DNA of 21,958 nucleotides. Source: a virus. Below the pieces are notes generated by a model. The model searched no databases and had not been told where the DNA came from. It was given only the letters and a program-made list of their open reading frames with translations. The DNA is taken from the IMG/VR virus record IMGVR_UViG_3300025137_000344, positions 1 through 21,958 of that record; one strand, given 5' to 3'. Numbering within the stretch: position 1 is the first letter of the stretch; each line of letters opens with the position of its first letter. The position numbers were made by a program, and so were the translations under genes. Below, in pieces: positions 2,630 to 13,711 of this stretch.

Positions 2630-3328
2630 CTAATCATACGCTCCTAGTAACCAAAATACCAATAAGTATCTATCACCTTTACCCACTTTTAGACCACGGT
2701 GCATGTGTGTAAAACTAGGGAAGAATAACGCATGACCTCTGGGTAAAGGGGGTACAACTCCCCTACCATGAAACTCAGTACCTCCACCTTCATAGTCCCC
2801 AGTATTTAAAGGCACTACTACGCTTATATCAGCACTAGCGTCATGATGCCACTCACCTTGTTCTCTTTTAGCTAGATTATAGTTAGCTAACTGTATTGAA
2901 TTTATTTTTAAACTGTAGCGTTGCCACACTGCGGTAAATAAAGGGTTCATGTGGTTGAGTACCACGCTGTGTAGATTTTCAGAAAGTTGTGGAATGTTAT
3001 CTTGTAGAGTTACTTCAGGGATCTGTCGTAGTTCATCTTCGTCATCGTTTTCGGTAAAACCTAAATAATGCTCGATGTTTTTAATTTCGTCAAGCATCAT
3101 ATCACAAAAATCTTCCGTAAATAAAGGCACGGAGTAAACGTCAGGTAATTCTTCTTTTATATATTCTTGTAAAGGTATTTTTAATTCTTGAGTACCGTCT
3201 CCTGAATGAAATTTTATAATTTCAGGTTCTGAGTCTTGTATTAATGCCAAGGTAGTCTTATCAATCATCCAATCTGATTGTATAGCTAACATAGTATTTT
3301 TAATTCTATAAGGTTTTGATCTATCCAT
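2630..3328 (-). CDS. 2OG-Fe(II) oxygenase, prolyl-4-hydroxylase type
   Basis: This 232-residue protein should use Fe(II) and 2-oxoglutarate to hydroxylate a substrate. The C-terminal half carries the double-stranded beta-helix signature: H161-x-D163 (WHHDAS), a following VVPLNTGDYEGGGTEF strand pair typical of the P4H subgroup, the distal iron ligand H210 (HMHRG) and R220 for 2-oxoglutarate (GDRYLLVFW). All metal and co-substrate ligands are therefore present. The first 130 residues are not recognised and may serve substrate recognition. Oxygenases of this type are common in marine phages with unknown substrates (protein, or in other subgroups nucleic acid). It is not of the TET/JBP subgroup, and it lies about 8 kb from the base-modification genes. 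The gene starts at ATG in a TAATG overlap with the preceding gene. Confidence 0.88.
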   Translation of the reverse strand: MDRSKPYRIKNTMLAIQSDWMIDKTTLALIQDSEPEIIKFHSGDGTQELKIPLQEYIKEELPDVYSVPLFTEDFCDMMLDEIKNIEHYLGFTENDDEDELRQIPEVTLQDNIPQLSENLHSVVLNHMNPLFTAVWQRYSLKINSIQLANYNLAKREQGEWHHDASADISVVVPLNTGDYEGGGTEFHGRGVVPPLPRGHALFFPSFTHMHRGLKVGKGDRYLLVFWLLGAYD

Positions 3329-4677: not shown

Positions 4678-4882
4678 TAACAAGTATGCCTCCACCTTTC
4701 CAGAAGTAACCATCCTGTTGTTTATTTTCTGTTCGATTAAATACATAGATAGTTTCTGGGTTATATCTTTGATCTATGAGGTTACAACACGACTCTATTT
4801 CACTTTCTTCGTAACAGATAATTTCTTCCCTGTTATCAAGTGATCTAGTGCCGTAACTCATTACCCACGTGTCTTTTGCCAT
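4667..4882 (-). CDS. hypothetical protein, 71 aa
   Basis: A small acidic protein with two adjacent cysteines near residues 32-33 and a C-terminal YFWKGGGILVNGK tail. The family was not recognised. The ATG follows AGGAG and is the first gene after candidate promoter P3 (4911-4939), so it leads the block that runs through the terminase small subunit and oxygenase genes. Confidence 0.7.
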   Translation of the reverse strand: MAKDTWVMSYGTRSLDNREEIICYEESEIESCCNLIDQRYNPETIYVFNRTENKQQDGYFWKGGGILVNGK

Positions 4883-4910
4883 ACTTAACTCCTATTAATA
4901 TATACCTTAT

Positions 4911-4939
4911 ATCATATTAATGTTTAGTATATAAGTAAA
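4911..4939 (-). promoter_or_regulatory. candidate sigma70-type promoter P3
   Basis: On the minus strand, TTTACT (4934-4939) is followed after exactly 17 bases by TATGAT (4911-4916), then an AGGAG ribosome-binding site and the ATG of the 71-residue gene. This is the best match of the three TTTACT promoters to the sigma70 form. Confidence 0.55.
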
Positions 4940-4987
4940 GCATCTTCTAAAAATACTTTATAGGTCGAGACGGTTTGATTTACTAGG

Positions 4988-5024
4988 TAAGGCGTTAGTA
5001 TTAAGCTATATAATCAACGCCTTA
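4988..5024 (-). terminator. 9-bp hairpin downstream of the 87-aa gene, without U-tract
   Basis: Arms 4988-4996 and 5016-5024 form a perfect 9-bp stem with a 19-base loop, 28 bases after the stop of the 87-residue gene and 48 bases before promoter P3. Neither strand shows a run of U after it, so it may protect the 3' end or mark a processing site rather than terminate. A smaller hairpin (about 5029-5041) lies just before it on the minus strand. Confidence 0.4.
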
Positions 5025-5051
5025 AAACGGCTCACAGTAAGCTTAATAGGG

Positions 5052-5315
5052 TTAAGAATAAAAGGGTACTTTATTTACTTTAAGGAATCGAAACTTACTT
5101 TCACCAGTAATGTTTTTTGAAGCTTTTAGTATAGAATTACTGATTTGATCTTTGTGTGTATCTAACCATTCAGGTAGGTAAAAATTATGAATTACAGATG
5201 TTTCTGCTAAGTTGACCTGTACGTTTAGTCTCATAGGTTCTTGTATTTTTAATTTAGGATCGTAGTAAACCACTTCCGCTATAGAGATAAACTTTTCTTT
5301 AATGTTTCTTGACAT
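5052..5315 (-). CDS. hypothetical protein, 87 aa
   Basis: A mixed alpha-beta protein with alternating hydrophobic strands (FISIAEVVYY, RLNVQVNL, FRFLKVNKV) around a helical middle. No cysteines and no recognised motif. It overlaps the 180-residue gene by 17 bases and has only a weak ribosome-binding site, so it is probably translated by coupling. It is the last gene of the block led by the DUF932 gene. Confidence 0.7.
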   Translation of the reverse strand: MSRNIKEKFISIAEVVYYDPKLKIQEPMRLNVQVNLAETSVIHNFYLPEWLDTHKDQISNSILKASKNITGESKFRFLKVNKVPFYS

Positions 5316-5841
5316 AGCCCAGCTTTATATCGTATTTAATATCATTTAAAGTAAGTACACCCTTATCTAAAACATTCTGTATTGTGGGTGTTTTACCTTT
5401 AAACACATACTGCTTTAATCTTTCTATATTCTTTTTACTCATAGGTGTTTTATCAGTTCTACTGAGTAACTGACTAGTGTCATAAGGATCTCTAGCACTC
5501 ACTACTTTACAGTATGTATTAGGTTTAGCAATATCAATACTTTTTGTTTTATATAAATTTTTCATATCATTCTCGGTTATAGGTTTAGCTTTCTTCATCA
5601 ATACTTTGTATAAGGCAAACTGTCCACACTTAGCAGTATCAAACTTCTTAGCTTTACCTGTGTATTCTTTATACCAACGTTCAGCTTGTACAACGCCTAG
5701 GGATGGTGACATCTTCATAGGATCACCTATGTGAACACCACCACCTTTGACTTTATGCATCTCAGTCATATTAAACTTCACTACCCGACTAGGAGAGTCA
5801 GGTAGAAAGTAAACAAAGTTTATGTCATACGCTGGGTGCAT
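5299..5841 (-). CDS. hypothetical protein, 180 aa, with a YDI-ending C-terminal module
   Basis: A basic protein of unknown function. It has a Gly-rich GGGVHIGDPMKMSPSLG segment near residues 33-49 followed by a Lys-rich helical middle. The C-terminus (GKTPTIQNVLDKGVLTLNDIKYDI) resembles that of the 88-residue protein at 1031-1297, which suggests a shared small domain, perhaps a docking or peptide-binding module. The ATG overlaps the TAA of the DUF932 gene (TAATG), and the start codon sits within an imperfect palindrome (GTGCATTATGCAC). Confidence 0.75.
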   Translation of the reverse strand: MHPAYDINFVYFLPDSPSRVVKFNMTEMHKVKGGGVHIGDPMKMSPSLGVVQAERWYKEYTGKAKKFDTAKCGQFALYKVLMKKAKPITENDMKNLYKTKSIDIAKPNTYCKVVSARDPYDTSQLLSRTDKTPMSKKNIERLKQYVFKGKTPTIQNVLDKGVLTLNDIKYDIKLGYVKKH

Positions 5842-7283: not shown

Positions 7284-9162
7284 TAAAAAACTCCTTATAA
7301 TGTATTGTAGCTTCTCCCCAACTTTTACCTACCTCAGCATCAACTTTATTGGGAACACATAAAGGTGTGCAATCTGACATAACCTGCATAATAAGTTCAC
7401 ACTGGTCAGGGTCAGTAACCGAAATATCTAATTCATCATGTACTTGAGTATGGGCGAGTATGCCCTCTTTATATAGTTCAACCATAGCTTGTTTAGTCAT
7501 ATCTGCTGCTGAGCCTTGAATAAGTCTATTCATAGCTTTATAGGTGTATGCTCTTTTAACTTGACTACCATATTCAGTAACAGCTTTTTCATATGGGTAG
7601 GGTGTCTTTCGATCATTCATAGGCTCATATAAATTAAATCTACACTTACGCCCAGCTATTGTGGTTATGTATCCACGGTTAGCACCAAGCCTAGCACACT
7701 GATCACGTAACCCTTTGATAAAAGGTACTCTTTTATGATATGTGTCAAATAGTATTTCTGCTTCTTGCATTGATAAGTCAAGTTGTTTAACTAGCTTTTC
7801 TTTGCCCATGCCATAACTTAAACCTAAGTTAATTATCTTAGCTTCTTTACGACTTATATTAGCCATGTCTGCTACTACCTGATGAAAATCTGCATTTCTA
7901 TTACGATAAGCATCTACTGCTTCTTCAGCACCTTCTTGTTCTGTAGCCGAAGCATAGTGTACTGTTAATCTAGGTTCTTGTTGAGAGTAATCAAAACAGC
8001 CCCAGTAATGATCTTTTTCAGGTACAAAAATGCTACGTATGAGTGGACCTATGTCTTCATTACGTGCTGGTACTTGTTGAAGGTTAGGGTTACTACTACT
8101 GAATCTACCTGTAACTGTACCTCCACGATCACTACGTAAAGGATGAAGCTCTCCGTGTATCCTACCTTTAACATTATGCTCTAATATCATTTTATCTATG
8201 AAAGTAGTTCTAGCTTTATTTAGCTTACGTGCTCTTACTATGTTGTTAGCTAACTTATGATCGTGGGCTTCTAACCAATCACCAGAAAAAGAAGGAGCAT
8301 TAGTTTTAGGTGTACGTGGGTAACTTAATCCTGCTCTATCGAATACTGTTGCTACTGATTGTGCTGCCCATAAATCTGGTCTAACTCCAAACTCTTTATG
8401 TATAGAAGTAAGTATCGTGTCTTCTTCTTTCTTTAGTTTCTTACTAACTTTTTCTGCCACGTCTAGATCTACTGGTACGCCTTTGTATCTCATGTCTAAG
8501 AGTATTGGTATAAGTGAAGTTTCAAGGTCGTATATCTTACCCACGTTCTCCAGTTTTATTAATTCTTTAAACACCTGCCATAACTGTAGTGTTAGTCCTG
8601 CATCTTTTTCTCCATATGGACCAACATACTTAGCTGGTAGTCTATACATTTCACTCTTAGGGTTTAGCCCATAAGCTTGTGCTGCTTCTATAAGTAAAGT
8701 TTCATCTTTAGTTTCTCCACAATATTTTTCACCTAGATTATTGAGTGAGTAGCTGTATTGATTTTCATCTATCAAGGGTGCAGCAAACATGGTGTCTTGT
8801 ATTTTACCGTGTACTTTTATACCATAACGTTTAAGCCAACCCATATCATAAAGAGAATTATGAAACACTTTATCATTCTCATATGTCATTTGTTTAGTCA
8901 TCCATTTAATAACTAAGTTTTTATCAAGATTACCACCACCCTCATGTTGTATAGGGAAATACATATTAAAATCTTTAGTGGCTATAGCTATACCTGTGAT
9001 ATAACCAGTATCAGTAAAAGCCCAAGATGGACCATGAGACATTAGAAGTGGATCATATGTTTCTAAATCTATTGCTACTTCATCGTACTTACTTAAATCA
9101 GGTAGACTATTAGGCGGAGTCCAATCTGCAGTTGGTGTGAATAAACTCACTTGTCTTGCCAT
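7276..9162 (-). CDS. polA: DNA polymerase I family A with 3'-5' exonuclease domain
   Basis: This is the replicative polymerase of the phage. The exonuclease domain (about residues 25-200) keeps D32 and E34 (IDLETYD), N102 and D106 (HNSLYDMGW) and Y183/D187 (YGEKDAG), so proofreading should be active. In the polymerase domain TGRFSSSNPNLQQVP (351-365), motif A with D391 (DYSQQEPRL), motif B with K442 and L446 (KIINLGLSYG) and motif C H575-D576-E577 are all intact. There is no 5' nuclease domain. The 628 residues fit T7-like or shorter phage PolA. L446 is at the position equivalent to E. coli F762, where phage enzymes have Phe, Tyr or Leu. The start ATG overlaps the nucleotidyltransferase gene by 16 bases. 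Confidence 0.96.
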   Translation of the reverse strand: MARQVSLFTPTADWTPPNSLPDLSKYDEVAIDLETYDPLLMSHGPSWAFTDTGYITGIAIATKDFNMYFPIQHEGGGNLDKNLVIKWMTKQMTYENDKVFHNSLYDMGWLKRYGIKVHGKIQDTMFAAPLIDENQYSYSLNNLGEKYCGETKDETLLIEAAQAYGLNPKSEMYRLPAKYVGPYGEKDAGLTLQLWQVFKELIKLENVGKIYDLETSLIPILLDMRYKGVPVDLDVAEKVSKKLKKEEDTILTSIHKEFGVRPDLWAAQSVATVFDRAGLSYPRTPKTNAPSFSGDWLEAHDHKLANNIVRARKLNKARTTFIDKMILEHNVKGRIHGELHPLRSDRGGTVTGRFSSSNPNLQQVPARNEDIGPLIRSIFVPEKDHYWGCFDYSQQEPRLTVHYASATEQEGAEEAVDAYRNRNADFHQVVADMANISRKEAKIINLGLSYGMGKEKLVKQLDLSMQEAEILFDTYHKRVPFIKGLRDQCARLGANRGYITTIAGRKCRFNLYEPMNDRKTPYPYEKAVTEYGSQVKRAYTYKAMNRLIQGSAADMTKQAMVELYKEGILAHTQVHDELDISVTDPDQCELIMQVMSDCTPLCVPNKVDAEVGKSWGEATIHYKEFFNE

Positions 9163-9560
9163 ACCCTTTTCCTTAATTCACTACTAGAAAAACTGTGTTG
9201 TCTGTAGTTATAGTAAACTTCTTTATGATCAAACTCTTTCTTACCTGTGAAATGTTTATTCATGTATTCCTCACCTATAATTCTTATATCCCAAGGTATA
9301 GTCCTGAGTATATTACGCAAGTCTTCTTCAGTTTCATAAACTATAGTTTCATCAACATACCTACAAGCATTAACTTGTATTTGTCTTTCTAATAAACTTT
9401 GAACTGGTTTATTTTTTCCCTCTCTTTCAAGACTAGGGTCGCTCTGGATAGCAACTATTAAATAATCACAGTTCTGTTTAGCTTCTGATAACATACTCAC
9501 ATGACCAGCATGAAATAAATCAAAAGCACCAAAAGTAATACCTTTAGATATAGGTGTCAT
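9147..9560 (-). CDS. cytidylyltransferase-like nucleotidyltransferase (TagD-type)
   Basis: The enzyme should transfer a nucleotidyl group from CTP or another NTP to a phosphorylated alcohol or sugar. It has GITFGAFDLFHAGHV near the N-terminus, with the HxGH signature (HAGH) that binds the triphosphate, and SFSSSELRKR near the end in place of the family's usual '(I/S)S(T/S)(T/S)xxxxR' motif. The length of about 137 residues is normal. There are three consecutive ATG codons. I use the last (9558-9560), which is 6 bases after GAGG; the frame reaches back to 9572. In phages such enzymes may make activated sugars or alcohols for DNA or surface modification, but the substrate cannot be read from sequence. 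Confidence 0.85.
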   Translation of the reverse strand: MTPISKGITFGAFDLFHAGHVSMLSEAKQNCDYLIVAIQSDPSLEREGKNKPVQSLLERQIQVNACRYVDETIVYETEEDLRNILRTIPWDIRIIGEEYMNKHFTGKKEFDHKEVYYNYRQHSFSSSELRKRVWQDK

Positions 9561-9858
9561 CATCATCCTCATCTACTGGAGCACAGTGAGCTTCTACTAG
9601 TAGTAAATATCTACGTAAATCACGTATATCATCTAATATACCGTGAGAAGTAGGATCTAACTCAATAGTTTTAAATACGTCGTAATCGTTATCTTTTACT
9701 TGATTTTCTATCCTATCCCATTTACGTGCTAACATCATAAAAGCACCTACGCCACCTCGTATACGCCAACTATCGCCATAGCTTTCCTGTGCTTTACGTA
9801 ACGCTACCGCATCACCAACACCTAAACTATGTATCTTATCAAAATCACTTCCTTCCAT
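9544..9858 (-). CDS. DUF1599 / nucleotide-modification-associated domain 1 (Nmad1-like) protein
   Basis: The 104-residue protein has the core YGDSWRIRGGVGAFMMLARK followed by WDRIE and a C-terminal helix ILDDIRDLRRYLLL. These are the features I associate with DUF1599, renamed Nmad1 because it recurs near phage base-modification genes. The fold is all-alpha and distantly MazG/dUTPase-like in reports, so action on nucleotides is plausible. A very acidic tail (DEDDDD) ends the protein. It lies between the nucleotidyltransferase and the HD nucleotidase and has a strong GGAGGT ribosome-binding site within the end of the HD gene. Confidence 0.75.
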   Translation of the reverse strand: MEGSDFDKIHSLGVGDAVALRKAQESYGDSWRIRGGVGAFMMLARKWDRIENQVKDNDYDVFKTIELDPTSHGILDDIRDLRRYLLLVEAHCAPVDEDDDDTYI

Positions 9859-10350
9859 TTATATACCTCCGTATATCTTAGTGAGATAACCTAATAATCG
9901 TTTACCTCTATCATTTAAATCGTTTGAAGCTAAATATTCCACCCCATTGCTGAATACTTCATTCATATTAGTGTTACCTAAACGCCTTTGACGTACACAG
10001 AATACAAGTAATTCAAACATATCGGCTTGTTTACCTAATTTAGTTTCTTCGGGGCTTAACTTATAAGCAACACCAATATCACTTTCATATTTATCTTCTA
10101 TCCTTTTTAACACTTTTACTAAATCAGGGTTAGCCCACTTAACAGGAGCAGGAATATCACCAGTAAACAATTCTGCTACGTCGTGAGTTAAGGCTCTTAA
10201 TATAGCTTCTTTACTTACGTTAGGTTCTAAGTGTTGTAGTATCATAGCTACGCCCCAAGAATGAGAAGCTACTGATTGCTCTCCTATAATCTCTAGTGTG
10301 TGGTAACGCTTAATAGCACCACCACGTATCATATTGAATAAATCATTCAT
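9859..10350 (-). CDS. HD-domain nucleotidase (YfbR-like 5'-deoxynucleotidase)
   Basis: YfbR-type enzymes remove the phosphate from dNMPs. The protein keeps the metal ligands H30 (SVASHSWG), H56-D57 (LRALTHDVAELFTGD) with E60 and D65, and D110 (KQADMFELLVF), and has RYH at 15-17 near the position of YfbR's RW pair. The start used here is the ATG at 10348-10350, which overlaps the preceding gene by 8 bases. The longer frame (to 10401) would overlap by 59 bases. With the ThyA-like enzyme and DUF1599 protein nearby, it could remove unwanted dNMPs, so that a modified base or dTMP dominates the pool. This is inference from context. Confidence 0.88.
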   Translation of the reverse strand: MNDLFNMIRGGAIKRYHTLEIIGEQSVASHSWGVAMILQHLEPNVSKEAILRALTHDVAELFTGDIPAPVKWANPDLVKVLKRIEDKYESDIGVAYKLSPEETKLGKQADMFELLVFCVRQRRLGNTNMNEVFSNGVEYLASNDLNDRGKRLLGYLTKIYGGI

Positions 10351-11029
10351 ATCTTTCACTACACATTTTTTCCTTACCGAAGTAGCACCACTTACAACCA
10401 AAAGTACTAGGTTTAGCTGGGAACTCAGTAGCAGTAGTCATAGCTACGGCTCGGTCATTTAACTTCTTTTGTTTATGAACTATATTGTCAGCACTATACT
10501 CATACCTGTCTATTTTACCATGGTCTAAATACCACAGCTCAGTAGTTATGGTTTTAATTTCAGGCATACGTTCTAGTACAACCGCACCATATAACTCACA
10601 TTGTTCTCTATGTGTTTCTTGATTACCATCATACCTACCTGTTTTAAAATCTATAACCCTAGCAGTATCTGTTCCATCTATGTGTACAAATGCATCTACT
10701 TTAGCTCTGCCCCATGTAGTATCACCAAACCATGGCGCAGGTTTCCAGTCTTTATCAAAAGCCCAGTCTCCTTCACAGGTAACATAACTTTTAAGGTGAA
10801 GTTCTTTTAATACATCAAAAGCTTCTTCAAAGTCTGCTAGAGGTTTAGGTATTTCATCATATCTACCTCTTATGTAATCTTCACACATAGTATGGATATC
10901 TTTACCTCTATCCATAGCTTTATTTCCAGGCTCTTTAATACGTTTGATGTAAGCAAAATGAGCTTTCTTAGGACACTTTTCAAAAGTACCTAATCTACTG
11001 TACGACCATTGATATATTTTATCACTCAT
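10343..11029 (-). CDS. PD-(D/E)XK nuclease, Cas4/AddB-RecB-like, with probable Fe-S cysteines
   Basis: This 228-residue nuclease has the RecB-family order: G42-x3-H46 (RGKDIH), D112 (KVDAF), D127-x-K129 (VIDFKTGR) and Q143-x3-Y147 (REQCELYG), all catalytic motifs of a DNA exonuclease. It has one N-terminal cysteine (C19, FEKCPKK) and three C-terminal ones (C212, C215, C223, GCKWC...MC). That 1+3 split is the hallmark of a 4Fe-4S cluster in Cas4, AddB and Dna2-type nucleases. It likely processes DNA ends in recombination or degrades host DNA. With the UvrD-like helicase at 14600-16102 it could form a split AddAB-like pair. No cas1/cas2 or repeats are present, so a CRISPR role is not supported. 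Confidence 0.9.
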   Translation of the reverse strand: MSDKIYQWSYSRLGTFEKCPKKAHFAYIKRIKEPGNKAMDRGKDIHTMCEDYIRGRYDEIPKPLADFEEAFDVLKELHLKSYVTCEGDWAFDKDWKPAPWFGDTTWGRAKVDAFVHIDGTDTARVIDFKTGRYDGNQETHREQCELYGAVVLERMPEIKTITTELWYLDHGKIDRYEYSADNIVHKQKKLNDRAVAMTTATEFPAKPSTFGCKWCYFGKEKMCSERYE

Positions 11030-12060
11030 TTAACTCTCCTTAATAACCAGTCAAAACCAGCAGTTGCCCAATCTGTTGCTATGCAATTTTGAACCTCAGA
11101 CATAGCATCGTCAGTTTCACCTTGCTTGTGTAAAAACCATGCATCTTGTAAAGGTACAGCTACACTACTAAAAAATACATCATCAAACTCTATGTCTTCA
11201 AAAGGTTTACGATCTAAAAATTTTACTAACTCTTTATTCCAATCTTCTATGTTATCGCTATTAAACATAGGGTAGTAATTAATAGATTTATTTGAATATG
11301 GATTCTCAAAATGCTTCATTGAGTAATAGTCAAAAGCATCAGACTCCTCTAGCCTAGAGTGCATTTCATCAAATACTTTAGTGTACGCGTGGAAACTATC
11401 ACTAACTTGAGTGTACTCACCTATTTCTACATCTATAGCACTAGCAACATATTCTTGTAGCATAGACATATGTACTATGTTAGCCCCAAATGTGCCCCAT
11501 ATAGCGTCATTAGACCTACAGCAAACTGTCATTAATAATCTGTTATTACGTATCTTGAAGTAAATAGTAGTGTTACAAGGTACATCTACGCCTTTACGGT
11601 CTAAGTCATTTACAGGATCCCACATCTGTAATACGCATCTTCTATCGGTAGGATCATCCTTTAATCTTTCAATAATAATATCTAACTGGTTTATAGTTCC
11701 TAAAGCTACACTAGAACCATCACGAAAATAATCTATCCATCTCCAACCATAAGCACCATGTAGTGTTTCACCATCATCACTATAGTCCCCCATACGATTG
11801 TTATACTGTTTAACAAAAGTTAAATCATTACGACCAGCTAACATCCACAAACCCTCCATAAAATGAAAGAATGGATTAGCATCTCTTACCTCTTCAAATA
11901 AGACTCTTTCCCAAGGTCTCTCATATACTGTACTTACAGCACACTCATGTTCTATTACATTACCTGCTCGACTTTCTTTTATATCTTCTTGATCAAAAGA
12001 AAGCATGTCCATGCCTTTTATAAAACCATCATTAACATTTCTACACTTAATTACATCCAT
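11026..12060 (-). CDS. thyA: thymidylate synthase ThyA-like enzyme (dTMP synthase or dUMP hydroxymethylase)
   Basis: This 344-residue enzyme methylates or hydroxymethylates dUMP using methylene-tetrahydrofolate. Conserved residues are E69 (FMEGLWML, E58 in E. coli), R140-R141 (TDRRCVLQMWDP), catalytic C162 (VPCNTT), R182-S183-x-D185 (CRSNDAIWG), N194 (GANIVH), and H224 and Y226 (SFHAY). The spacing from Cys to each matches E. coli TS within one residue. N194 corresponds to N177, which selects uracil rather than cytosine, so a dCMP hydroxymethylase is unlikely. The 'RSNDAIWG' variant motif is common in phage ThyA homologues. Tight TAATG coupling to the glycosyltransferase gene makes dUMP hydroxymethylation a real alternative to plain dTMP synthesis. 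Confidence 0.92.
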   Translation of the reverse strand: MDVIKCRNVNDGFIKGMDMLSFDQEDIKESRAGNVIEHECAVSTVYERPWERVLFEEVRDANPFFHFMEGLWMLAGRNDLTFVKQYNNRMGDYSDDGETLHGAYGWRWIDYFRDGSSVALGTINQLDIIIERLKDDPTDRRCVLQMWDPVNDLDRKGVDVPCNTTIYFKIRNNRLLMTVCCRSNDAIWGTFGANIVHMSMLQEYVASAIDVEIGEYTQVSDSFHAYTKVFDEMHSRLEESDAFDYYSMKHFENPYSNKSINYYPMFNSDNIEDWNKELVKFLDRKPFEDIEFDDVFFSSVAVPLQDAWFLHKQGETDDAMSEVQNCIATDWATAGFDWLLRRVK

Positions 12061-12842
12061 TAAAATAACTCCCCTGATTGTTTACTCACACCACTATTGT
12101 ATGCTCTTTTCCATTGAACATTTACATCCTTACGTATTCCTCCACCCCATGCTGTTTTAGTTTCTTTTTCTACTATCTTAACAAAGTCAGGGTGTAACTC
12201 GTGCAGTAACTCTGCACCTTTTGATTGTACTTCTTCAGTACGCCACTCGCTACAACCACCTGCAGCATTAGAAGATTTTTGACCTTGAGCATAGTAATAA
12301 CTAATTTTACTGCCTTTACCTTGACGCAGTAATTGTAAGTTTATGTCAAAGTCTTCCATAACTTCGGTTCTAGCTAACTCAATACCCTCAAACATATCTA
12401 AGTTATATCCTAGCACTCTCATGTATCTTGTATTCTCTACTGATAAATGTTCTACTCGGTTATTACCCTCTCTACCACTAACACCAACATGTGCGTAATC
12501 ATCAAGCCACTTATCTAATAACCCAAATAATGCTGGATATTCTTCAGGTTCCATGTATCTTAAATGCCAGTCTGTAGGAGACTTACGTATGTAAAAACGC
12601 AGGTCATCATCTAGCATAACTATTTTGGGGTCGGTAGTATTGTCATGTATAAACTTACGTTTACCTGATATACCTTTTATAGATGAAGGTATAACCATGT
12701 ACTTACAATCATATTTGTCTTTATATAAATGCTCCTCATCATCATCAATAACGAGGACTACTTCTTTACGCATCTCCTCTGGAAAAAATGACAGGGTAAC
12801 TTGATCGTGTGCTCTGCCTCTAGTTGGAATATAAATTATCAT
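12060..12842 (-). CDS. GT-A glycosyltransferase, resembling TET-associated (TAGT-like) phage glycosyltransferases
   Basis: A 260-residue protein with an N-terminal IPTRGRAHDQVTL strand-loop, VVLVIDDDEEHLY, SGKRKFIHDN, then KIVMLDDDLRF with the metal/sugar-nucleotide DDD motif at 78-80, and MEDFDINLQLLRQG (E163-D164) as candidate catalytic base region. This is the GT-A fold order. The IP(S/T)RGRA start is what I recall for phage base-modifying glycosyltransferases, including those next to TET/JBP genes. It lies between the ThyA-like and hypermodification genes with TAATG overlaps on both sides, so it may attach a sugar to a hydroxymethylated or further modified thymine in DNA. The donor sugar is unknown. 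Confidence 0.85.
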   Translation of the reverse strand: MIIYIPTRGRAHDQVTLSFFPEEMRKEVVLVIDDDEEHLYKDKYDCKYMVIPSSIKGISGKRKFIHDNTTDPKIVMLDDDLRFYIRKSPTDWHLRYMEPEEYPALFGLLDKWLDDYAHVGVSGREGNNRVEHLSVENTRYMRVLGYNLDMFEGIELARTEVMEDFDINLQLLRQGKGSKISYYYAQGQKSSNAAGGCSEWRTEEVQSKGAELLHELHPDFVKIVEKETKTAWGGGIRKDVNVQWKRAYNSGVSKQSGELF

Positions 12843-13711
12843 TATAGTATGTCCTCCTCATATTCACGTGGTTTATATCTGGATCGTGGTCTACCTTGAC
12901 CTAAACGCGTCCTCTCATATTTATCAAACTCGCATAAACAATGTTCTATGTCTCTCATTTCTAGTGGTAATGGTGTGTTATTTAATAAAGCCAGTAAGTC
13001 TCTCATTTCTTCTATGAATAATGGCTTCTTTTGTTTACTGTCTAACGGTCTACCGAATATTCTATTAAGTCCTCTCATAGCACCAGGTCCAGGATTAGCC
13101 CAAGTCATAATATCTGGTGCGTTACGCAACCATTTAGTATGGCGTAAATCAGTTACTACCTCGTAAGACATAAAATCACTAAACCCAGGATAAGGTAAAA
13201 AACTTTTCCAACAGTTTTCTATACTGCTAAAATCAAAATCACCGTGAGAGTTAGCATATAGTGGTGTGAGTATTTTGTCAACTGTTTGTTCTATCTTAGT
13301 TCCACCTAGCGTACCTGTTAACATATATGCGCCAGTGTAAACTTTCTCACCTTTGTCTTTACGCTCTTTCATAATACTTTTAATACGCTCTGCGTCAAAG
13401 GTAGAAGGAAAACCGATAGCTTCTAAAGTGGGTGGCCAATTGATTTGCCTAGCCATAGCCATAGCAAAAGGTAAGTTAGGATGGTCGGCGTGTGGCTCTC
13501 TCCAGTTTTCTCGTATCCAAATAGTTACTCTATCTAATTCACGATACACATTACAAAAGCTGTACTCAGTAAGTATAGCATCATCACTCCATGGATAGGG
13601 ATCATTATTTAACTCCTTCTTTATAAAAATATTATGACGCTCAATCATAAAGTTATTGAAATCTTCTACACGCCTTAAAGAGTTATTGCCTATTAAAGTC
13701 TTAAATATCAT
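12842..13711 (-). CDS. DNA base hypermodification protein (HMUDK_hel / alpha-glutamyl-putrescinyl-thymine pyrophosphorylase-like)
   Basis: The 289-residue protein has WSDDAILTEYSFCNVYRELD (41-60) followed by RVTIWIREN. This is the helical domain found in 5-hydroxymethyl-dU kinase/aGPT-PPlase proteins (Pfam HMUDK_hel). Further motifs are YTGAYML (125-131), YEVVTDLRHT, DIMTWANPGPGAMRGLNR (200-217), a helix-hairpin-helix-like segment, and MRDIEHCLCEFDKYER (252-267) with GRPRSRY. I recognise the set from proteins annotated as 'putative DNA base hypermodification protein'. The family was predicted to act on 5-substituted thymine in phage DNA, and related phage pathways have been shown to make such bases. 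There is no P-loop, so this is not the kinase itself. Its TAA overlaps the glycosyltransferase start. Confidence 0.88.
   Translation of the reverse strand: MIFKTLIGNNSLRRVEDFNNFMIERHNIFIKKELNNDPYPWSDDAILTEYSFCNVYRELDRVTIWIRENWREPHADHPNLPFAMAMARQINWPPTLEAIGFPSTFDAERIKSIMKERKDKGEKVYTGAYMLTGTLGGTKIEQTVDKILTPLYANSHGDFDFSSIENCWKSFLPYPGFSDFMSYEVVTDLRHTKWLRNAPDIMTWANPGPGAMRGLNRIFGRPLDSKQKKPLFIEEMRDLLALLNNTPLPLEMRDIEHCLCEFDKYERTRLGQGRPRSRYKPREYEEDIL

Follow-up and report, generated by a model that had tools for sequence, protein, structure and literature searches.

The DNA analysed here is a 21,958-base fragment of an incomplete viral genome (IMG/VR record IMGVR_UViG_3300025137_000344, positions 1 to 21,958), referred to below as the window. 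Three open reading frames (ORFs) were found on one strand, exactly where an earlier first-pass annotation had put them, encoding a HMUDK_hel protein (aGPT-PPlase clade 1), a GT-A-type DNA glycosyltransferase (TAGT) and a ThyA-family protein, the putative deoxyuridine monophosphate (dUMP) hydroxymethylase (HMase) (Table 1). Hidden Markov model searches, by which that annotation had proposed to check its assignments, placed each protein in the family named for it, with Pfam scores far above the curated cut-offs. The HMUDK_hel protein reached 164.6 bits (cut-off 25) over positions 4-276 of 281 of its profile and the TAGT 85.4 bits (cut-off 27.5) over the whole of its own (1-205 of 205), and PHROGs agreed with Pfam for HMUDK_hel (phrog_2396), TAGT (phrog_842) and the ThyA-like protein (phrog_5131).

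Both junctions of the operon, ACTATAATGATA and TTTTAATGGAT, read TAATG with a one-base overlap, as had been claimed, and a purine-rich, Shine-Dalgarno-like stretch precedes the start codon at each of them. ATGA overlaps at 13708-13711 and 11026-11029 further join the three-gene set to the flanking genes. The DNA polymerase of the window shares about half of its residues with its counterparts in phage 023Pt_psg01 and in Pelagibacter phages; where HTVC023P is annotated around the polymerase, no such operon was found.

Table 1. Genes of the operon in the window and the profile matches of their products.
Feature	Coordinates	Strand	Details
HMUDK_hel (aGPT-PPlase clade 1) protein	12842..13711	minus	289 aa; PF18723 E 4e-48
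TAGT, GT-A-type DNA glycosyltransferase	12060..12842	minus	260 aa; PF20691 E 7e-24; phrog_842 E 6e-54
ThyA-family, putative dUMP hydroxymethylase (HMase)	11026..12060	minus	344 aa; PF00303 Thymidylat_synt E 3e-22; phrog_5131 E 4e-111
PDDEXK/Cas4-like nuclease	10343..11029	minus	PF12705 E 2e-19; ATGA overlap with HMase; in the operon, no modification role claimed
HD-domain 5'-deoxynucleotidase (YfbR-like)	9859..10350	minus	PF12917 E 2e-17
Small helical protein	9544..9858	minus	no Pfam match; conserved with HMUDK_hel

The HMase has the ThyA set of residues, with a catalytic Cys (C162) and Glu (E69), the phosphate Arg residues R140 and R182 and the ribose residues H224 and Y226. The statement that all substrate residues are kept was borne out, as E69, R140, C162, R182, S183, D185, N194, H224 and Y226 were all found in it, with no variation across 153 aligned HMases, almost all of them taken from HMUDK_hel loci. 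At the specificity position of the ThyA superfamily, Asn denotes a uracil and Asp a cytosine substrate (PMC5175136); this position is Asn in the window (N194) and in 153/153 of the aligned HMases, and Asp in the T4-like HY03 enzyme. Because of this Asn, dUMP is the likely substrate and 5-hydroxymethyldeoxyuridine (5hmdU) the likely intermediate. Among annotated proteins, the nearest relatives of the enzyme are HMases from phages that have bases derived from 5hmdU, and the one of the M6-like Pseudomonas phages, whose bases of this kind have been published (PMC6449724), is 45% identical to that of the window over 99% of its length. These two features lend support to the thymine-based, sugar-carrying modification that had been predicted. 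Hydroxymethylation rather than methylation is suggested by the subfamily (phrog_5131 and the M6-like relatives), and a ThyA-type HMase accompanies HMUDK_hel in 155 of 162 loci.

If the ThyA homologue made ordinary deoxythymidine monophosphate, or hydroxymethyl-deoxycytidine monophosphate (hydroxymethyl-dCMP), the TAGT would glycosylate something other than thymine-derived DNA bases. Thymidylate synthases and dUMP hydroxymethylases are not separable by sequence alone, cytosine is the target of the T-even TAGTs (PMC13216743) and the announcement of Brevibacterium phage LuckyBarnes predicts its HMase to be a dCMP-hydroxymethylase (PMC6588365). However, this last prediction is contradicted by the Asn at the specificity position, and such an alternative is rendered highly improbable by the uniform Asn, by the relatives from phages with 5hmdU-derived bases and by HY03 and DLP6, large phages with distant TAGTs in which no HMUDK_hel was found with the same model that matched W03 and W01.

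The TAGT has both the IPTRGRA start and the DDD motif ascribed to it, the latter being an acidic DxD-type GT-A motif (D78-D79-D80) that was invariant in 29 TAGTs. It is a candidate for sugar transfer onto 5hmdU in DNA. In a 2026 study, 288 of 753 phage genomes encoded TAGT homologues without a T-even alpha- or beta-glucosyltransferase, and these solitary enzymes were termed potential novel transferases and unexplained (PMC13216743). In one related locus (L058) a second TAGT gene, at 10453-11285, is apparently split into two frames, with an intact copy at 4800-5627; in another (L048) a dUTPase gene at 2421-2867 lies between HMUDK_hel and TAGT, which fits a supply of dUMP to the HMase.

Partner genes of HMUDK_hel in related loci

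No P-loop 5hmdU kinase is present in the window, in agreement with the first-pass annotation, which had left two options: a route that differs from those described, or a kinase encoded outside the window. For this question 79 viral HMUDK_hel loci were fetched, and 50 whole records, of HMUDK_hel relatives and of yardsticks, were searched, LuckyBarnes, M6 and MW202897 among them. TAGT was found in 40 of them, the 5hmdU kinase (PF18748) in seven and ADDT (PF18724) in seven. A single record (G039) combined TAGT with kinase and ADDT; in the records of the other TAGT relatives neither was found, the kinase being missing from all 39. The complete 50.8-kb genome of LuckyBarnes, with the order HMase-TAGT-TAGT-HMUDK_hel, gave no match to PF18748 or ADDT, nor was the kinase found in TAGT records of 60-80 kb.

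The kinase of an M6-type pathway could be encoded by the host, be very divergent or lie beyond the sequenced fragment, and it is true that the window is only such a fragment and that PF18748 is a divergent family with some members scoring below the cut-off. However, a profile grown from M6 gp54 detected the kinase in kinase-type loci but in one TAGT-type locus only, the ADDT step is likewise missing, and the complete LuckyBarnes genome and the 60-80 kb records argue in the same direction, so that this explanation is very unlikely. A kinase outside the window was thus not supported by either profile over the 50 whole records, whereas the first option was favoured: the TAGT relatives are without PF18748, even in a complete isolate genome, and the route appears to be one without a kinase step, different from those described. 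A possible hybrid pathway was seen at L069:8495-14504, where, uniquely among the records, a partial TAGT match occurs together with kinase, ADDT and HMUDK_hel; a radical SAM/SPASM gene is also present.

As a second approach, the ORFs of 162 HMUDK_hel loci, some of them from bacterial and archaeal assemblies, were searched with profiles. The partner was TAGT alone in 124 loci, the kinase alone in 20 and a GT-B-like glycosyltransferase alone in six; two loci had two partners and ten had none, several of the latter being truncated fragments and one (L064) having a TAGT match elsewhere in its record. The order HMUDK_hel-TAGT-HMase on a single strand was kept in 122 of the 125 loci holding all three genes, many of which come from one phage group, and this excludes chance. 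Exclusion between TAGT and kinase gave Fisher p values of 2e-7, 1e-5 and 0.002 after thinning of HMUDK_hel at 80, 70 and 60% identity, respectively, in rows that share ancestry, most TAGT loci being of that group. The HMUDK_hel tree counts for more for this reason: it requires at least five changes between TAGT and kinase partners, and a single clade of TAGT-partnered proteins was rejected (approximately unbiased test, p 2e-57), with the L002 row placed on a very long branch.

Where TAGT and kinase are both missing, a locus often has the GT-B-like glycosyltransferase, which occupies the slot between HMUDK_hel and HMase in L171, L167, L172 and L173. In L171 its gene lies exactly between the two, and the protein is a clear homologue (41% identity) of that encoded beside HMUDK_hel in L071, the only one to pass the Pfam cut-off for Glycos_transf_1; the label of L172, L173, L065 and L175 comes from an iterative profile partly seeded with them, and by BLASTP the L173 protein was not homologous to that of L071. 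As GT-B-like genes replace TAGT or kinase in L171 and L071, three unrelated folds (P-loop kinase, GT-A TAGT and GT-B-like) fill the slot beside HMUDK_hel, and the 5hmdU hydroxyl would be the substrate that they share.

Two further arrangements were observed. At L065:3-3022, the neighbours of HMUDK_hel are a GT-B-like fragment and genes for a PIG-L deacetylase, an APS-kinase-like protein and a sulfotransferase-like protein, a set that suggests that the base is decorated in a more elaborate way, perhaps by sulfation. In Hyphomicrobium and related assemblies (L160:5856-10736, also L159, L161, L162 and L174), HMUDK_hel is found with an HMase of the uracil type and with the small protein in duplicate, adjoined at least in L160 by recA and a uracil-DNA glycosylase gene. 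By appearance these loci are chromosomal and not from phages, and they might serve in defence or as a bacterial system of base modification; aGPT-PPlase domains are predicted in defence by DefensePredictor (PMC13092281).

Predicted fold of HMUDK_hel and a proposed kinase-free route

The residues R57, D60, D188, G208-P209-G210 and C260-E261 of HMUDK_hel are invariant. Searches of solved structures by sequence, single or profile, gave nothing, and matches were obtained by fold comparison alone, with an AlphaFold2 model built from 40 aligned homologues (mean pLDDT 91). The nearest solved fold was 8z2n (Z 11.7, rmsd 3.8 over 218 residues), which is PUGT of PaMx11, a 5-phosphomethyl-dU (5-PmdU) glycinyltransferase of the ADDT family, followed by helix-hairpin-helix (HhH) DNA glycosylases (Ogg, EndoIII and Mag chains, Z 8-11, 165-205 residues). 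As helical folds reach such Z values easily, the DNA-glycosylase reading rests on the consistency of the list, almost all rows of which belong to this base-flipping class, and the likeness to the HhH-GPD fold is a resemblance of a predicted model only. No Asp was conserved in the 40 homologues between R217 and M236, a possible location of the catalytic Asp that follows the hairpin motif in functional HhH DNA glycosylases.

The core residues of HMUDK_hel are identical whether the partner is kinase or TAGT. Residues ~131-147 differ between the two groups, one of which is dominated by a single lineage, and could be the partner interface. Kinase chemistry should not be deduced from the name of the domain, since its partner in the collected loci is more often a glycosyltransferase. 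Judging from the model, HMUDK_hel probably serves the partner transferase as a module by which 5hmdU is recognised and flipped.

Our preferred reading, to which we assign a probability of about 0.6, is that this marine-phage operon encodes a thymine-glycosylation pathway without a kinase step, in which HMUDK_hel presents 5hmdU to the TAGT. In such a pathway, the ThyA homologue would convert dUMP into 5-hydroxymethyl-dUMP (step 1), which nucleotide kinases would phosphorylate to the triphosphate for polymerisation into phage DNA; trimming of competing nucleotides is a probable task of the HD nucleotidase and of the small, MazG-like protein (step 2). The TAGT would then move a sugar from a nucleotide-sugar to the CH2OH of 5hmdU in DNA, yielding a base-J-like 5-(glycosyloxymethyl)-dU (step 3). 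HMUDK_hel, through its DNA-glycosylase-like fold, would bind and probably flip 5hmdU and offer it to the transferase encoded next to it (step 4), be it the TAGT here, the P-loop kinase in M6-like phages or the GT-B-like enzyme elsewhere. The chemistry of the four steps, the identity of the sugar and the role of HMUDK_hel are what we infer; gene content, families, residues, the near exclusion of TAGT and kinase, the repeated exchange of partners and the predicted fold are the observations behind them.

HMUDK_hel could also be an enzyme itself, as its older name aGPT-PPlase implies, displacing a leaving group from an activated 5hmdU, with the TAGT glycosylating a different group or a later product. 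PUGT as the nearest fold is in keeping with this, as are the motifs collinear with the ADDT family (GF..F..YE..TDLR and EHxLCE compared with GFGPWIGFK and ETxLCK), for which the profile match is weak (hhalign 12.5%). However, the TAGT records other than G039, a complete genome among them, are without PF18748 or ADDT, and so no source of activated 5hmdU is known in them; moreover, the HMUDK_hel core does not change between kinase and glycosyltransferase partners. An enzymatic HMUDK_hel is thus unlikely, but its numerous invariant polar residues and its likeness to an amino-acid transferase mean that it may be catalytic, and this is the first of several points that count against presentation of 5hmdU to the TAGT. 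In addition, middling Z values come easily to helical folds, and Foldseek on its own gave no match to the model below E 0.1. The complete circular genome MW202897 encodes a TAGT and an HMase of the uracil type but no HMUDK_hel, which is therefore not always needed; no relatives of the MW202897 TAGT were found in IMG/VR. In five Hyphomicrobium-like loci with HMUDK_hel and HMase, no transferase was found, and a distance of 48 kb separates HMUDK_hel from the kinase in Salmonella phage SFP10. Finally, one phage group supplies the majority of the TAGT loci, and the T-even TAGTs act on cytosine (PMC13216743), activity on 5hmdU being only predicted here.

A broader proposal, which we hold more tentatively, is that a base-flipping DNA-glycosylase fold gave rise to HMUDK_hel as an exchangeable module that presents 5hmdU and serves three unrelated transferases, in which case kinase-free 5hmdU glycosylation would be a widespread, unrecognised thymine modification of phages. 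We would then argue that the domain named after the 5hmdU kinase is a shared 5hmdU-handling module and not simply a part of the kinase. For the solitary TAGTs from those of the 288 genomes that also encode an HMase of the uracil type, 5hmdU would be a candidate substrate. Glycosylation of thymine should protect phage DNA from the nucleases of the host and might be turned into a tool to label 5hmdU.

Neighbouring genes

The HD gene is listed as an ORF starting at 10401 (TTG), but the junction points to the ATG at 10350 as its likely start. An HD nucleotidase likewise adjoins the HMase in M6, Pam3 and MW202897, and its probable role is control of the deoxynucleoside monophosphate pool. The small protein is encoded in 133 of the 162 HMUDK_hel loci, always on the strand of HMUDK_hel, and its homologue in Pam3 is annotated 'nucleotide modification'. 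Its AlphaFold2 model was nearest, with weak fold matches, to all-alpha NTP pyrophosphatases (MazG-type), making it a possible member of this class, and nucleotide-pool control is a reasonable guess.

At 9147-9572 of the window lies a gene for a nucleotidyltransferase of HldE/TagD type, scoring under the curated NCBIfam cut-offs for these; the same type was found in 51 TAGT-type loci and in no kinase-type locus, and it could activate the sugar donor. The possibility that a 2-oxoglutarate-Fe(II) oxygenase encoded at 2630-3328 hydroxylates thymine was rejected, as the protein matches OGFOD2-like and phrog_61 types and not Tet/JBP. The Tet/JBP family (PF12851) gave no match in 43 related records, which is weak evidence since control genomes gave none either.

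Comparison with known systems

The closest known pathway is the thymidine hypermodification of M6/YuA-like phages (HMase, 5hmdU DNA kinase, HMUDK_hel and ADDT, leading to 5-NedU). In addition to the HMase described above, the window has a homologous HMUDK_hel (41% identity) and an HD nucleotidase in the same neighbourhood, but M6 has the kinase gp54 and the amino-acid transferase gp51, whose place is taken by a glycosyltransferase in the window and in its TAGT relatives. Cyanophage Pam3 has the same chassis (HMUDK_hel-Nmad5-HMase-HD-small protein) with another branch, a P-loop NTPase and aGPT-PPlase2. In both M6 and Pam3, then, the neighbourhood of HMUDK_hel, HMase and HD nucleotidase goes with kinase-type (P-loop) and ADDT-type genes.

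The T-even TAGTs (beta-glucosyl-HMC-alpha-glucosyltransferase, as in T6 and HY03) belong to the same Pfam family, PF20691, but use glucosylated 5-hydroxymethylcytosine as substrate (PMC13216743), and in HY03 the HMase is of the Asp (cytosine) type and no HMUDK_hel was found. PUGT of PaMx11 (8z2n) is close to HMUDK_hel in fold, but it is of a separate Pfam family, acts on a phosphorylated base and is 8% identical in the structural alignment. LuckyBarnes gp38-gp41 combine the same three families in one block with no kinase and no ADDT, differing in the two TAGT copies, in gene order and in an HMUDK_hel that is 27% identical. Base J of kinetoplastids, made by hydroxylation of thymine and then glucosylation, is a glycoside of 5hmdU in DNA, the product class predicted here; however, the JBP enzymes oxidise T in DNA, whereas here 5hmdU is predicted to arise as a nucleotide. 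If true, kinase-free 5hmdU glycosylation would be a counterpart of base J in prokaryotic viruses.

Against the limited literature and general knowledge, the enzyme families are known, but their kinase-free combination, its breadth and the exchange of partners appear to be new. As the chassis is common to M6, Pam3 and the window, what sets TAGT phages apart from those of the M6 type seems to be the decorating branch and not the making of 5hmdU.

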